From positions 62,001 to 126,000 of the forward strand of contig JAGOOG010000002.1 in the NCBI GenBank assembly GCA_017992605.1: DNA of 64,000 nucleotides. Direction: 5' to 3'. The position numbers and the translations under genes are program-made. This document shows, in pieces, positions 40,123-48,996 of this stretch (position 1 is the stretch's first letter; each line of letters begins with the position of its first letter). The DNA is from Deltaproteobacteria bacterium (GTDB lineage Bacteria > Desulfobacterota > Desulfomonilia > UBA1062). The notes under the pieces were generated by a model, which was given only the letters and a program-made list of their open reading frames with translations, did not search any database and was not told the origin of the DNA.

Positions 40123-41504
40123 TATTCCCTCCGGGCTCCGGCAGGTCCTGTTCTTTCCGGCACTGCAATCCCGTACCGCCTCATCTTCCTGAACAGGGTG
40201 CTCTTGTGGATGCCGAGCTCGCGGGCTGCGGCCAGGCGGCTGTTCCCGTTTCGCTCCAGGGCCTTCCGGATGGCCTGGGCCTCGACAAGGTCCCTGGCCG
40301 ATCTCATCCCACTCTGGGCCTTTCCCTTTGCATAGCGCTCGGTCAGCTCTTCGGGCAGATGCCCGATACCGATGGAGCCCCTGGCACAGAGGATGAAGGC
40401 ACGCTCCACGACATTCTCGAGCTCCCGGATGTTGCCCGGCCAGTCGTGGGCCATGAGCAGGGAGAGGGCCTCGGAGGTGATCCCCTGGACGGATTTCTTC
40501 TGCAGGGCGTTGAAGTGTGCGACGAACTGCTCCACCAGGATGGGGAGGTCCTCCTTCCTCTTCCTCAGCGGCGGCAGTTCGAGGCGGACCACGTTCACCC
40601 GGTAGTAGAGGTCTTCGCGGAACTGGCCCTGTTTCACCTGTTTGGCCAGGTCCCTGTTGGTGGCGACGATGATCCTGGCATCCGCGGTCTCGGTCCGGGT
40701 GGAGCCCAGCGGCTCATATTTCCGCTCCTGAAGGACACGCAGGAGCTTCACCTGGAGCGCCGGGCTCACATCTCCGATCTCGTCGAGGAACAGGGTCCCG
40801 CCCTTTGCCAGGGCGAACCTGCCGGGCTTGTCCCGCGTGGCCCCCGTGAAGGCCCCTGCCTTGTAGCCGAAGAGCTCGGACTCGAGGAGAGTGTCCGGAA
40901 GCGCGCTGCAGTTGACCGCGAGAAAAGGCCCCTGGCGGCGAGGACTCAGGGCATGGATGGTCCTGGCAACGACCTCCTTGCCCGTGCCGGTCTCGCCGAG
41001 GATGAGCACGGTGCTGGGGCTGGCCGCCACGGCAGGGATGACCTCGAACACCTTCTGCATGGTGGGGCTCCGGCTCACCAGCTCCCCCACATGGGAACGC
41101 CCTTTCAGTTCCTGGCGGAGTTCCTCGAGCTCGGTGAGGTCGCGGAAGGTTTCCGCCCCGCCGGTGACTCGCCCACTCGCATCCCTCAGCACGGCCGTGG
41201 AGACGCTGATGGGGATGCGCTGCCCCTGCGTATCGATGATGTAGCAGGACCTGCCTATGATCGGCCTGCCGGTCATGAGGGTCCGCTTCAGCGCACAGTC
41301 CACCTCGCACATGCTGGAGCGGAAGACCTCGGAACAGAGCCGGCCCACCGCTTGGTTGCGGGGTATGCCGGTGATCTCCTCGGCGGCCCGGTTGAACGAG
41401 GTGACGATCCAGTTCTCGTCCACGGTGAACACCCCGTCCGAGATGCTCTCCAGTATGGCATCCGTGGGGGTCGTGGTTTTCCAGCTCCTCTGTTTCTGCA
41501 CCAT
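40122..41504 (-). CDS. sigma-54-dependent activator (PAS-AAA-Fis) of the orange-protein-type operon
   Basis: The 460-residue regulator has a PAS domain (residues 15-125), an AAA domain with Walker A GETGTGKE, the sigma-54 contact loop GAFTGA and [18 protein letters not shown], and a Fis-type helix-turn-helix [20 protein letters not shown]. The PAS domain holds Cys57, Cys66 and Cys70 in a spacing shared with the activator at 54845. It lies directly upstream of a -24/-12 promoter and paired inverted repeats. In Desulfovibrio the orange-protein operons are controlled by such an activator with sigma-54. The start at 41504 gives the family N-terminus. Confidence 0.92.
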
Positions 41505-41596
41505 TATGCTTCTTCCGGGGGATTCATGGTCCCGCTCTCCAGGGGCCTGCCCCCCGCTTCTTACCACAACCGCTCGATTCCTGGAAGATCCGGGGG

Positions 41597-42406
41597 TTAT
41601 GCGTCGCGCTCATCGGCAGAACCTTCTGCCGTCGGGCTCGTATCCCCTTCAGAAGGGACCTCCATCGACTCGGCTATGACTCTATCTTCTTGGCCCTCAT
41701 CTTTTGTCATGCCCCCCTCCCGTTCACGCGCCATGTCACCGGCCATCTCGGCGATCCACAGGGGGTGGCGGTGCTCGGCGTAGTCGCGTCGTATCCAGCC
41801 GGTAAGGATGGCCCGGATCATGGGCCGGTTGGGCGTGATGAGTATGGCCGCCATGTGGGCGAAAAAGGCAAGCACGAAGAGGGCAAAGAAGAGGTTGTGG
41901 GCCCAGGTGGCCCAGAGAACGACCGTCAGGGACATGTCCGGGGCGAAGAGGTTTTTCCAGGTCTTGACCAGCCCGCTCGCGATGAGTCCGGCGACGATGA
42001 CCACAATCCCCACATAGGCGAGGCGCTGCTCGGGGAGGTACTTTGCAAAAGGTGGTTCCTGCCCTGAGCCGAGGAAGGATTTGATCACCTCCCAGGAATC
42101 CCTGAGGTCGCCCCGCTTGGGCAGGATGGCCCGGTGTCCCATGAGCCCGTGATAGACCACGTGGAACATGCTCGCGCCGATGAAGACCACCGAGAATGCG
42201 TAGTGCAGCTGCAGTGAGAAGATATAGTCTCCCGACCACCGCAGCCCCGGGATCTCGGTGACGAAGTAGCGCCGGGCAATGGGGAGCTCGAAGAGCCCGG
42301 TAAGGATCAGGGCAAGCCCTGAGAGCGCTATGGCCCAGTGCTCGATGAGCACGATGATGTCGTGCCTCTTCACCAGCCCCTTTTCATCGGTCAGACGGTC
42401 ACTCAT
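41597..42406 (-). CDS. formate dehydrogenase gamma-like cytochrome b membrane subunit
   Basis: The 269-residue protein has four predicted helices. Candidate haem-ligand histidines lie in LIEHWAIALSGLAL, LQLHYAFSVVF, MFHVVYHGLMGH and ATWAHNLFFALFVLAFFAHM, as in FdnI/thiosulfate reductase type di-haem cytochrome b. A long acidic, unstructured C-terminal tail of about 50 residues follows. It would pass electrons between a periplasmic partner and the quinone pool. It overlaps the Fe-S protein gene by 8 nt. No catalytic molybdopterin subunit is adjacent. Confidence 0.82.
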   Translation of the reverse strand: MSDRLTDEKGLVKRHDIIVLIEHWAIALSGLALILTGLFELPIARRYFVTEIPGLRWSGDYIFSLQLHYAFSVVFIGASMFHVVYHGLMGHRAILPKRGDLRDSWEVIKSFLGSGQEPPFAKYLPEQRLAYVGIVVIVAGLIASGLVKTWKNLFAPDMSLTVVLWATWAHNLFFALFVLAFFAHMAAILITPNRPMIRAILTGWIRRDYAEHRHPLWIAEMAGDMAREREGGMTKDEGQEDRVIAESMEVPSEGDTSPTAEGSADERDA

Positions 42407-43388
42407 GGGGCTCCTCCCTGTCTTTCTTCATCCGCACGCCTGCAACGGCGGCAACACCGGCGACGACACCGAGGAGCGGCGAGGCCATCACTGCCTTGCC
42501 CATGGGATCGGTCTTCTCCATCCTCCGCGGCGCCTCGGCCAGGTGGGGCCTGCCCGGACCCTTCTCGATGGCCGCATTCAGGGCATCGAAAGGCACCGGC
42601 GAAACGTACAGGGTGGAGGTGCCGCCGTTCTCCTCCTTTCCGTAGATGAAACCATTCATTGCCGCAGCCCGCCGCTCGGCCTCGGCGAGTATCTCTTCCC
42701 TGGGGCCGATGCTCATTGCCTTTCTCGGGCAGGCAGGGATGCACACGGGCTCCTTGCCTTCGAGGAGCAGGTCCCGGCAGAGGTCACACTTGAACATGAC
42801 CCCGTTGCCTGCGAGCGTCGGCAGGATGTGCAGGTAGATGCCCACGCCGGACTGCCGCTGGGGAATGGCCCAGGGGCATACCTCCTTGCACTTGGCGCCG
42901 CCGAAGCAGATGTCCTTGTCGATGGCAACCGCCCCGGTTTCATACTTGTGATTTGCCGAGAAGGGGCAGATGGTGGCGCAAGCAGGGTTGTCGCAGTGCA
43001 TGCAGCGCCTGGGGATGTAGACGGTCTGCGTCCTGCCTTCGTATTCCACGTCCGCCTTCTGGACGAAGAGGTAGTTGTACGGGGTGAGGCGGTCCTTCAC
43101 CCCCTGCCTCGTCGACCAGTCTTCTATCCTGCCCCTGGGGAACAGTTCCGGGATGGGATCGACAGGGACCGGCACCACGCCTGCGTTCTTCGCCCTGCAT
43201 GCCGCGACGCAGGCCGGCGTTTCTCTGCCCCGGCACCCGTCGCACAGGCTCAGGTCGATGAGGGTGGCAACGGTCCCGCTGCCTGCGGCTCTGACCTTTT
43301 CTGGCAATCCCACCGTTCCGGCCAGGGCTGCGGTCGCCGCAGCCGCGAGGAACGTCCGCCTGGAGATTCCGCTTTGTCTCTTCTTCAT
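42399..43388 (-). CDS. Tat-exported multi-[4Fe-4S] electron-transfer subunit
   Basis: The 329-residue protein begins with a twin-arginine signal (SGISRRTFLAAAATAALAG). It carries four groups of cysteines in CDGCRGRETPACVAAC, CMHCDNPACATICP, CFGGAKCKEVCP and CDLCRDLLLEGKEPVCIPACP, like the beta subunits of formate dehydrogenase-N and DMSO reductase types. The C-terminus has a hydrophobic anchor near residue 300. It should pair with the cytochrome b encoded next to it. The start at 43388 gives the Tat signal at the proper distance. Confidence 0.85.
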   Translation of the reverse strand: MKKRQSGISRRTFLAAAATAALAGTVGLPEKVRAAGSGTVATLIDLSLCDGCRGRETPACVAACRAKNAGVVPVPVDPIPELFPRGRIEDWSTRQGVKDRLTPYNYLFVQKADVEYEGRTQTVYIPRRCMHCDNPACATICPFSANHKYETGAVAIDKDICFGGAKCKEVCPWAIPQRQSGVGIYLHILPTLAGNGVMFKCDLCRDLLLEGKEPVCIPACPRKAMSIGPREEILAEAERRAAAMNGFIYGKEENGGTSTLYVSPVPFDALNAAIEKGPGRPHLAEAPRRMEKTDPMGKAVMASPLLGVVAGVAAVAGVRMKKDREEPHE

Positions 43389-43472: not shown

Positions 43473-43625
43473 TTATCCATGGTCCTTACCCTTGTCCTTT
43501 TTTCTGTCTGCCACCTGGCAGGAGCCGGGGGAGACTCACGTGGGGACCCCGAGCCTGGGCAATACCCAGGCCTGGAGAACGAACCATACACCGACGATTG
43601 CGATGAACACCAGGAAATCACCCAT
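43473..43625 (-). CDS. predicted 50-residue single-span membrane selenoprotein (in-frame UGA at 43538-43536)
   Basis: This gene is hidden because an in-frame UGA stops it at codon 30. Before the UGA it reads MGDFLVFIAIVGVWFVLQ, then AWVLPRLGVPT, one clear membrane helix. Read as selenocysteine, it continues U-VSPGSCQVADRKKDKGKDHG to a TAA at 43473. The U-x4-SC spacing puts a Cys five residues past the Sec, so a selenenyl-sulfide is possible. A hairpin with loop AGGT starts 14 nt after the UGA. The ATG is 8 nt after the thioredoxin stop, behind TGAGGT. The tail would be hydrophilic and basic. A 29-residue peptide ending at UGA is the alternative. Confidence 0.75.
43508..43521 (-). promoter_or_regulatory. 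bacterial SECIS-like hairpin of the small membrane protein
   Basis: On the coding strand CTGCC and GGCAG pair around the loop AGGT. The loop begins 20 nt after the UGA and has G at its second position, like the peroxiredoxin hairpin. Confidence 0.65.
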
Positions 43626-43633
43626 GGCAGACC

Positions 43634-43969
43634 TCAGCCCATGTTCCTGTCGATGAAGGCGGCCAGCTGGGCCTTGGGCATGGTGCCGATCCGGGATTCC
43701 TTCACGGCCCCGCCCTGGATGAAGAGCAGCGAGGGGATGCTCCGTATCCCGTATTTACGGGAGACCTCGGGGCTTTCGTCCACGTTCACCTTGACCACCC
43801 TGAGCCTTCCGTCATACTCCTTCGCGATCTCTTCCAGAACCGGACCGATGGCCCTGCAGGGTCCGCACCAGGGTGCCCAGAAATCCACCAGGGCAGGGCT
43901 GTCGGACTTGAGAACAAGGGGTTCAAAAGTTGTATCATCGGCATGGACAATCTGTTCGCTGTTGCTCAT
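43634..43969 (-). CDS. trxA: thioredoxin
   Basis: The 111-residue thioredoxin has the active site DFWAPWCGPCRAIGPVLEE, KVNVDESPEVSRKYGIRSIP with the cis-proline, and no signal peptide. It reduces protein disulfides in the cytoplasm. AAAGGAGGAACCA precedes the start. It is the first gene of an operon with the small membrane selenoprotein and lies opposite the Crp/Fnr gene. A TTGAT-N4-ATCAA site stands 79 bp upstream, placed well for activation of this promoter. Confidence 0.95.
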   Translation of the reverse strand: MSNSEQIVHADDTTFEPLVLKSDSPALVDFWAPWCGPCRAIGPVLEEIAKEYDGRLRVVKVNVDESPEVSRKYGIRSIPSLLFIQGGAVKESRIGTMPKAQLAAFIDRNMG

Positions 43970-44047: not shown

Positions 44048-44061
44048 TTGATCCAGATCAA
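44048..44061. promoter_or_regulatory. FNR/DNR-type operator TTGAT-CCAG-ATCAA
   Basis: The site is a perfect TTGAT-N4-ATCAA inverted repeat between the divergent trxA and Crp/Fnr genes. Toward trxA it is followed after 22 bp by TAACTA, the class II FNR promoter spacing. Toward the regulator it ends 15 bp before the ATG, a position suited to repression. Confidence 0.8.
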
Positions 44062-47611: not shown

Positions 47612-47674
47612 CATCTTCTGTCGTCGGGAATGAATCCAGTATCCGGCCGACTATCCAGGGGAGGAGGTTGGTGC

Positions 47675-48766
47675 ATGAAGATGAAGAACGTATTCGCAAC
47701 ACTGGGGGGCATCATGGCCGTAGGCGCCCTTATCGGCGTCCTCGCGCCACTGCTGCAGAAGCTGGGCAACCCAGGCAACATGGGCATCTGCGTGGCATGC
47801 TTCGAACGTGACATCGCCGGCGCCCTGGGGCTCCACCGGGCCGAGGTGGTGCAGTACATGCGTCCCGAGATCATCGGGTTCGTCCTGGGCTCCCTGGTGG
47901 CCGCACTGCTGTTTAAGGAGTTCCGTCCCCGGGCCGGCTCCGCACCCATCGTGAGGTTCGTGCTCGGGGTGTTCGCCATGATCGGTGCCCTGGTATTCCT
48001 GGGCTGTCCCTGGAGGGCACTGCTCAGGCTCTCCGGCGGCGACCTGAATGCAATCCTGGGGATCCTCGGTCTCGCCTTCGGGATCTGGATCGGCACACTT
48101 TTCCTCAAATCGGGCTATAACCTGGGCCGCACCGAAAAGACCCACAGTGCGGCAGGGCTGGTACTGGCGGCGATCATGACAGGATTTCTCGCCCTGGCCC
48201 TCGTCTTTCCGCCCCTTGCCGGAGAACCGAAAAACGACATCCTGTTCTACAGCCTGAAAGGGCCGGGCTCCATGAACGCCCCGCTCTTCGTGTCCCTCGG
48301 CATCGGGCTGGCCATCGGGTTTCTTGCCCAGAGAAGCAGGTTCTGCACCATGGGGGCCATCCGCGACCTGGTCCTGTTCGGCCAGACGCACCTGTTCATG
48401 GGCATCCTGAGCCTGGCGGCGGCGGCCTTCGTCACCAACCTCGTGCTGGGGCAGTTCCACGCGGGGTTCACCGGACAGCCCGTCGCCCACACCATGCACG
48501 TCTGGAACTTCCTGGGCATGGCGCTGGCGGGCCTGGCCTTTGCCCTGGCAGGGGGCTGTCCGGGCAGGCAGCTCTTCCTGGCCGGCGAGGGTGACGGCGA
48601 CGCCGCGGTGTTCGTCATCGGCATGATCGTGGGCGCGGGCATTGCCCATAACTTCGGTCTTGCAAGTTCACCTCAGGGCGTCGGCCCGCACGGCATCGCA
48701 GGCGTGGTGGTGGGATTCGCCGCCTGCCTGGCCATCGGCTTCACCATGCGCAAGAGCGCTGCATAA
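47675..48766 (+). CDS. yedE: YedE/FdhT-type selenium-metabolism membrane protein
   Basis: The 363-residue membrane protein belongs to the YeeE/YedE transporter family. It has the selenium-branch features NPGNMGICVACFERDIAG, VFLGCPWRALLRLSGGD and ALAGGCPGRQLFLAGEGDGD, with conserved Cys residues in each. Family members are transporters or channels for a sulfur or selenium species. GAGGAGG precedes the ATG at 47675, so that start is preferred to 47630. It is followed by TusA-like and DUF3343 genes, the usual company of this selenium-linked branch. Confidence 0.86.
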   Translation: MKMKNVFATLGGIMAVGALIGVLAPLLQKLGNPGNMGICVACFERDIAGALGLHRAEVVQYMRPEIIGFVLGSLVAALLFKEFRPRAGSAPIVRFVLGVFAMIGALVFLGCPWRALLRLSGGDLNAILGILGLAFGIWIGTLFLKSGYNLGRTEKTHSAAGLVLAAIMTGFLALALVFPPLAGEPKNDILFYSLKGPGSMNAPLFVSLGIGLAIGFLAQRSRFCTMGAIRDLVLFGQTHLFMGILSLAAAAFVTNLVLGQFHAGFTGQPVAHTMHVWNFLGMALAGLAFALAGGCPGRQLFLAGEGDGDAAVFVIGMIVGAGIAHNFGLASSPQGVGPHGIAGVVVGFAACLAIGFTMRKSAA

Positions 48767-48777
48767 GGAGGAAGACC

Positions 48778-48996
48778 ATGAGTATCACCGTAGATGCGCG
48801 GGGCCTTTCCTGCCCCCAGCCGGTCATCATGACCATGGCGAAGATCAAGGAAATGGGCACGGGTGAGTTCACGGTGCTCGTGGACACGGACACGTCCAAG
48901 GAGAACGTGAGCCGGGCCGCTTCCAGCAAGGGCTGGGACGTCAGGGACGTCCAGCCGGACGGAGACGGGTACCGGATCACCCTGAAAAAGGGCTGA
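48778..48996 (+). CDS. TusA/SirA-like sulfur (selenium) carrier
   Basis: The 72-residue protein has the TusA fold with VDARGLSCPQPVIMTMAKIKE, where the CPQP cysteine is the persulfide carrier. In the YedE/YedF selenium group the same domain may carry selenium as a perselenide. It lies 11 nt after yedE behind AAGGAGGAAGACC and ends two bases before the DUF3343 start. A longer YedF would contain a second domain; here the second domain is encoded as the next gene. Confidence 0.9.
   Translation: MSITVDARGLSCPQPVIMTMAKIKEMGTGEFTVLVDTDTSKENVSRAASSKGWDVRDVQPDGDGYRITLKKG

Follow-up and report, generated by a model that had tools for sequence, protein, structure and literature searches.

Prokaryotic selenoproteins have been catalogued in 119 families and subfamilies (PMC13188914, Table 1). 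In the bacterial SECIS model, a small apical loop with a G in its first two positions lies 16–37 nt past the UGA (PMC13188914, Fig. 2). The 50-residue gene described here, which lies in the window (the whole 64,000-nt stretch of DNA that was analysed), shares with the catalogued selenoproteins an in-frame UGA, a SECIS-like hairpin, co-occurrence with selB and Cys forms in Sec-less genomes, but none of those selenoproteins is described as a one-helix protein of 45–60 residues with a GVxT-U-MSxxC motif. Like the hypothetical protein GOS_A, reported with two Sec sequences and 155 with Cys (Zhang and Gladyshev 2008, PMC2398784), it belongs to a class of small selenoproteins that has neither a name nor a domain. 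GOS_A is mostly Cys, however, and the window's family consists almost wholly of Sec forms; identity with GOS_A was ruled out because of its many Cys homologues. Thioredoxin-fold selenoproteins (UxxC or CxxU) offer another likeness, with a Sec and a nearby Cys, a redox role (here proposed) and thioredoxin-linked genes, whereas the family lacks that fold and has U-x4-C or U-x5-C instead of UxxC; the 50 residues gave no Pfam match at all, to a thioredoxin domain or otherwise. The job proposed for the family, carrying electrons from thioredoxin to the membrane or across it, would be shared with DsbD and CcdA, and one of the family's Cys members is encoded immediately upstream of a DsbD_TM-thioredoxin gene. 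DsbD, however, is a multi-helix protein whose membrane domain contains a Cys pair, whereas the single-helix proteins of the family show no sequence similarity to DsbD, and the selenoprotein gave no match to the DsbD_TM domain (PF02683).

Whether the family was already catalogued, a question raised in the preliminary description, was answered for NCBIfam, Pfam and two published lists, from all of which it is absent. Alignments of 30 and 75 members gave no meaningful model match in Pfam or NCBIfam, and no entry in the Table 1 selenoprotein lists of 2026 (PMC13188914) and 2022 (PMC9312934) fits by name or motif. In openly accessible papers, no match was found for a small or single-pass membrane selenoprotein, and the Sec motif matched only unrelated text. 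We consider it quite probable that the family has not been catalogued before; an earlier uncatalogued notice of it is possible. By its authors' account, the deep-Sep method may filter out selenoproteins without Cys homologues, which every known selenoprotein now appears to possess (PMC12013277); a family so dominated by Sec would be missed by searches that demand such homologues. No new selenoproteins were reported for LCP-89 bacterium B3_LCP, a deep-Sep test genome (PMC12013277), and a record with the same organism name (L168) carries a member. Given such a family, the selenoproteome sizes of many phyla would be underestimates.

The gene and its homologues

The gene lies on the minus strand (43473..43625) and would encode 50 residues including Sec30, an assignment based on the frame and its homologues. 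It starts with an ATG at 43625-43623 and runs for 29 codons (MGDFLVFIAIVGVWFVLQAWVLPRLGVPT) to the in-frame UGA of Sec30 (43536..43538, minus strand), after which 20 further codons (VSPGSCQVADRKKDKGKDHG) are closed by a TAA at 43475-43473. Immediately upstream, trxA (43634..43969, minus strand) encodes a thioredoxin with WCGPC (Pfam PF00085, 3.9e-30; NCBIfam TIGR01068 over cut-off). Its stop (43636-43634) is separated from the ATG by 8 bases (GGTCTGCC), and a ribosome-binding-like GAGGT stretch lies between the two. The checked coordinates thus bear out the 8-base gap after trxA, the ribosome site and the ATG of the preliminary description, and its frame of a UGA, 20 codons and a TAA stood as well; the strand, which had been left unstated, is the minus strand.

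A selenoprotein frame in one sequence alone could be due to chance, but its homologues, as judged from their sequences, take that doubt away, and a chance origin of the frame was therefore dismissed. A search reading through stops found the 50-residue read-through form in 37 of 60 relatives, each with one TGA. Profile searches gave matches in 32 of the 42 genomes of the window's class and in 169 of the 395 genomes of its phylum, with TGA in all matches listed in both cases; at ~43% of the phylum's genomes, the family is commoner than a rare oddity. In Acidobacteriota, matches were obtained in 73 of 297 sampled genomes (about a quarter), one of them with TGT. A DNA pattern permitting TGA, TGC or TGT, with one genome per species searched, returned at least 80 loci (79 TGA and one TGC), whose record titles carry more than twelve labels at phylum level: Deltaproteobacteria, Acidobacteria, Planctomycetes, Cyanobacteria/Obscuribacter, Verrucomicrobia, Spirochaetes, Myxococcota, Zixibacteria, Armatimonadetes, Rokubacteria, SAR324, LCP-89 and CSSED10-310. 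The putative read-through relatives number hundreds, from at least twelve bacterial phyla.

Within one Acidobacteriota lineage (L248, L249 and L252) a G replaces the M after the stop (GVPT-TGA-GV...), and this lineage therefore escapes any pattern that demands ATG there. Six stop-less Acidobacteriota matches, one of them in G758, were considered as candidate Cys or fusion forms; those in G523, G565 and G727 had merely ended before a TGA. In G641 a stop follows GVPT, its codon not being given in the match listing, and the match in G637, with LPRLGLG-TGA at its end, is possibly an unrelated sequence.

Predicted membrane topology and proposed redox partners

The family motif is W-x-L-P-[RK]-x-G-V-x-T-Sec-M-S-x-x-Cys, with a charged tail, in proteins of 45–60 residues. 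AlphaFold2 predicted a helix over residues 2-24 (43554..43622, minus strand), taken to be a single membrane helix, with a pLDDT of about 90 over residues 1-20 and nothing confident beyond the helix. Over 130 members the mean charge was -0.7 for the first six residues and +1.7 for the C-side; combined with the positive-inside rule, this bias suggests an N-out/C-in topology in which Sec would face the cytoplasm. The conserved Cys36 (43518..43520, minus strand) is a candidate resolving cysteine: like M31 it is present in at least 90% of 75 members, a few members lack this second Cys, and the Sec–Cys spacing is U-x5-C in the window and U-x4-C in most members. This conservation and spacing make a selenenylsulfide between Sec and Cys plausible.

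In the mechanism that we propose, the UGA would be decoded by SelB and tRNA-Sec, guided by the hairpin just downstream, and the product, of 45–60 residues with one N-out/C-in helix, would hold its Sec motif at the cytoplasmic membrane face. There, Sec and the Cys that follows it by five residues (by six in the window) would most likely cycle between selenol/thiol and selenenylsulfide, a thioredoxin-type partner would reduce the selenoprotein, and the electrons would be passed on to a membrane or membrane-near acceptor. No simpler protein could bring selenium to the membrane, and, if the proposal is true, this one would be a membrane electron carrier reduced to its minimum, bound to escape selenoprotein searches based on Cys homology.

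The gene neighbourhoods of the family bear on the proposed donor. Thioredoxin-type genes were adjacent in 12 of 111 loci, and only four further loci had a match elsewhere. Among upstream neighbours, Pfam identified thioredoxin (PF00085) in 9 of 93 and AhpC-TSA, Redoxin or Thioredoxin_8 domains in 12 of 93, two sets that may overlap, and thioredoxin-fold domains were the commonest upstream domains; downstream, thioredoxin-type genes were found in 5 of 91. At L173 (3880-5739) the order is a thioredoxin gene, the Cys member and the DsbD_TM-thioredoxin gene, and at L139 (CSSED10-310 bacterium, 537-1067) an entire thioredoxin domain follows in frame (PF00085, 6e-29), this fusion lacking the usual second Cys. 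The adjacency, the fusion, the DsbD context, the charge and the Cys together favour a membrane-face redox carrier. The thioredoxin redox relay suggested in the preliminary description remains a proposal: neighbouring genes, the single fusion and the Cys member flanked by thioredoxin and DsbD genes speak for it, but most members do not lie beside a thioredoxin gene. We consider a Sec-decoding selenoprotein that is also a thioredoxin-linked membrane redox carrier to be fairly likely as the best joint explanation, and for the thioredoxin-linked carrier role taken by itself the balance leans in favour. Only tentatively do we extend this to a widespread one-helix family in which selenium is near obligatory and a membrane-face selenol would relay electrons from thioredoxin-type donors to membrane acceptors.

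ArsR, DUF302, zinc-ribbon and universal-stress genes are recurrent neighbours as well. This variety, with ArsR-type genes downstream in 9 of 91, a NikR-like gene further down in one family, and DUF302, di-haem peroxidase, zinc ribbon and universal stress protein genes also nearby, would suit a genuine selenoprotein for which thioredoxin is not the dedicated partner, namely a peroxidase-type protein acting on lipid or organic peroxides or a soft-metal-binding selenolate at the membrane, as would the many loci without a thioredoxin-fold neighbour. However, thioredoxin-fold domains remain the commonest upstream, a fusion and a DsbD-linked Cys member are known, and there is no metal-binding motif besides Sec and Cys; we regard this alternative as rather unlikely. 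In the class relatives L025-L040, an ArsR-type and then a NikR-like regulator lie downstream and a TlpA/ResA-like protein is encoded upstream.

In the window, a perfect FNR-type palindrome, TTGATCCAGATCAA, is located between trxA and a divergent Crp/Fnr-family gene (44048..44061), as had been claimed for an FNR-type site; it occurs once in 64 kb vs 0.02 expected. When positions were compared, eight other loci proved to have such a site upstream of either trxA or the selenoprotein gene itself (L012, L013, L015, L017-L019, L082 and L135). On the 3' side of the selenoprotein gene (40125-43388, minus strand) are genes for a 4Fe-4S protein (HmcB/HybA-like, scoring below the HmcB/HybA cut-offs), a b-type cytochrome and a sigma-54 regulator. 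At 47630-48996 (plus strand) the window also encodes a YedE-type selenium transporter (TIGR04112, 482 bits vs a cut-off of 200) and after it a YedF/TusA-like protein (TIGR03527, which scored below cut-off); this pair is ~4 kb from the selenoprotein gene.

Decoding of the UGA codon

The preliminary description had named relatives ending at the same point, or a lack of Cys homologues, as observations that would speak against a selenoprotein. The relatives do not end there. Conserved residues flank the UGA in the alignment (W, LP[RK], G and T before it, then U, M-S and Cys), and a comparison of 26 disjoint close pairs gave 23/20/63 substitutions at codon positions 1/2/3 over the ten codons that follow it, a pattern like that of the codons before it (120/57/243). 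Neither TAA nor TAG occurred at the Sec position among the listed matches spanning the site; since a plain stop would be TAA or TAG in some members, this argues that the UGA is not an ordinary stop. The listed spanning homologues have UGA there except for two Cys forms, L173 (TGC) and L230 (TGT), the only Cys homologues found. Both of these come from genomes without selB over cut-off. Cys forms are thus very rare, and a nearly Sec-only family raises the question of why Cys cannot replace Sec.

A SECIS-like hairpin, CUGCC-AGGU-GGCAG, follows the UGA (43508..43521, minus strand; nt 15-28, counted from the base following the UGA). CUGCC (nt 15-19) pairs with GGCAG (nt 24-28) around the loop AGGU (nt 20-23), with -8.3 kcal/mol for the isolated hairpin. 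For SECIS-type stems we required a G in the first two loop bases, a loop 16-37 nt away and a stem of at least 4 bp, and the window's hairpin, with a loop beginning at nt 20, is of this type, in agreement with the 5-bp hairpin with loop AGGT described earlier. In a 42-nt fold, a competing structure using nt 1-12 was more stable (-15.6) and the AGGU hairpin was not the minimum-energy structure; a ribosome at the UGA would be expected to cover nt 1-12.

The hairpin is more clearly seen across the family. SECIS-type stems averaged 6.5 bp in 136 genes vs 4.2 bp in a null of synonymous recodings that preserved the protein and local codon use, and reached at least 5 bp in 121 of the 136 members. For the 109 genes that align without gaps from the UGA to the Cys, compared in a fixed register, the top covarying pairs were nested (19-31, 18-32, 17-33, 21-29, 22-28 and 23-27). 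Of the seven pairs, 70% were formed, vs 51% when the 3' halves were permuted among genes (maximum 56%) and 31-47% when slid, and in any one register only about half of the 109 members had all five inner pairs of the stem. The family loop lies 24-26 nt downstream of the UGA, the window's slightly earlier, at nt 20. Whole-ensemble folding energy, a weaker test than the SECIS-specific stem and covariation, gave a mean z of -0.97, and an Rfam scan around the gene returned three sub-threshold hits, which were taken as chance.

A lack of Sec machinery in the genome had also been named as contrary evidence. The window's genome contains selB (2.1e-98), selD (8.5e-112) with its own in-frame TGA, and a tRNA-SeC with anticodon tca; selA was the part not found, with either TIGR00474 or PF03841, in this assembly of 63 contigs (98.5% complete). 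Because selD itself holds an in-frame TGA and the assembly is in 63 contigs, the missing selA is probably an assembly gap. Across 49 family-carrying genomes, chosen mostly outside Desulfobacterota, selB was over cut-off in 45, and the four without it include the Cys-form genome G464. In Acidobacteriota, selB was present in 60 of the 63 genomes with a strong UGA-form match (counted from listings) vs 134 of 234 others (Fisher 7e-10), and in the window's phylum, where selB is almost universal, in 161 of 169 carriers vs 192 of 226 others (p 9e-4), a weaker contrast in the same direction; the genomes are related rather than independent, so both Fisher values overstate. The Cys-form Acidobacteriota genome G652 (TGT) lacks selB.

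Taken together, homology running through the UGA, a covarying hairpin, Cys forms in selB-lacking genomes and co-occurrence with selB are features of the sequences themselves, and on these grounds the gene almost certainly encodes a selenoprotein in which the UGA is read as selenocysteine. A tiny gene, often near other genes and with YedE 4 kb away in the window, might instead suggest that the UGA and hairpin form a selenium-sensing leader-peptide switch, Sec insertion vs termination controlling a downstream gene; we judge this very improbable, as the genes downstream show no conservation within the family, YedE is on the other strand and the protein is conserved on either side of the UGA. Hardly credible at all is a plain 29-residue peptide ending at the UGA, with the rest untranslated and its similarity due to chance or RNA structure: standard gene calling would end the frame there and selA is missing from the assembly, but M31 and C36 are kept in at least 90% across phyla, the third-position bias persists past the UGA, TAA or TAG was never seen at the site, sense codons TGC and TGT stand there in selB-less genomes, and the thioredoxin domain of L139 follows in frame.

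One member with a UGA and hairpin (L099, 9278-9427) was found on an IMG/VR contig, which is putatively viral.
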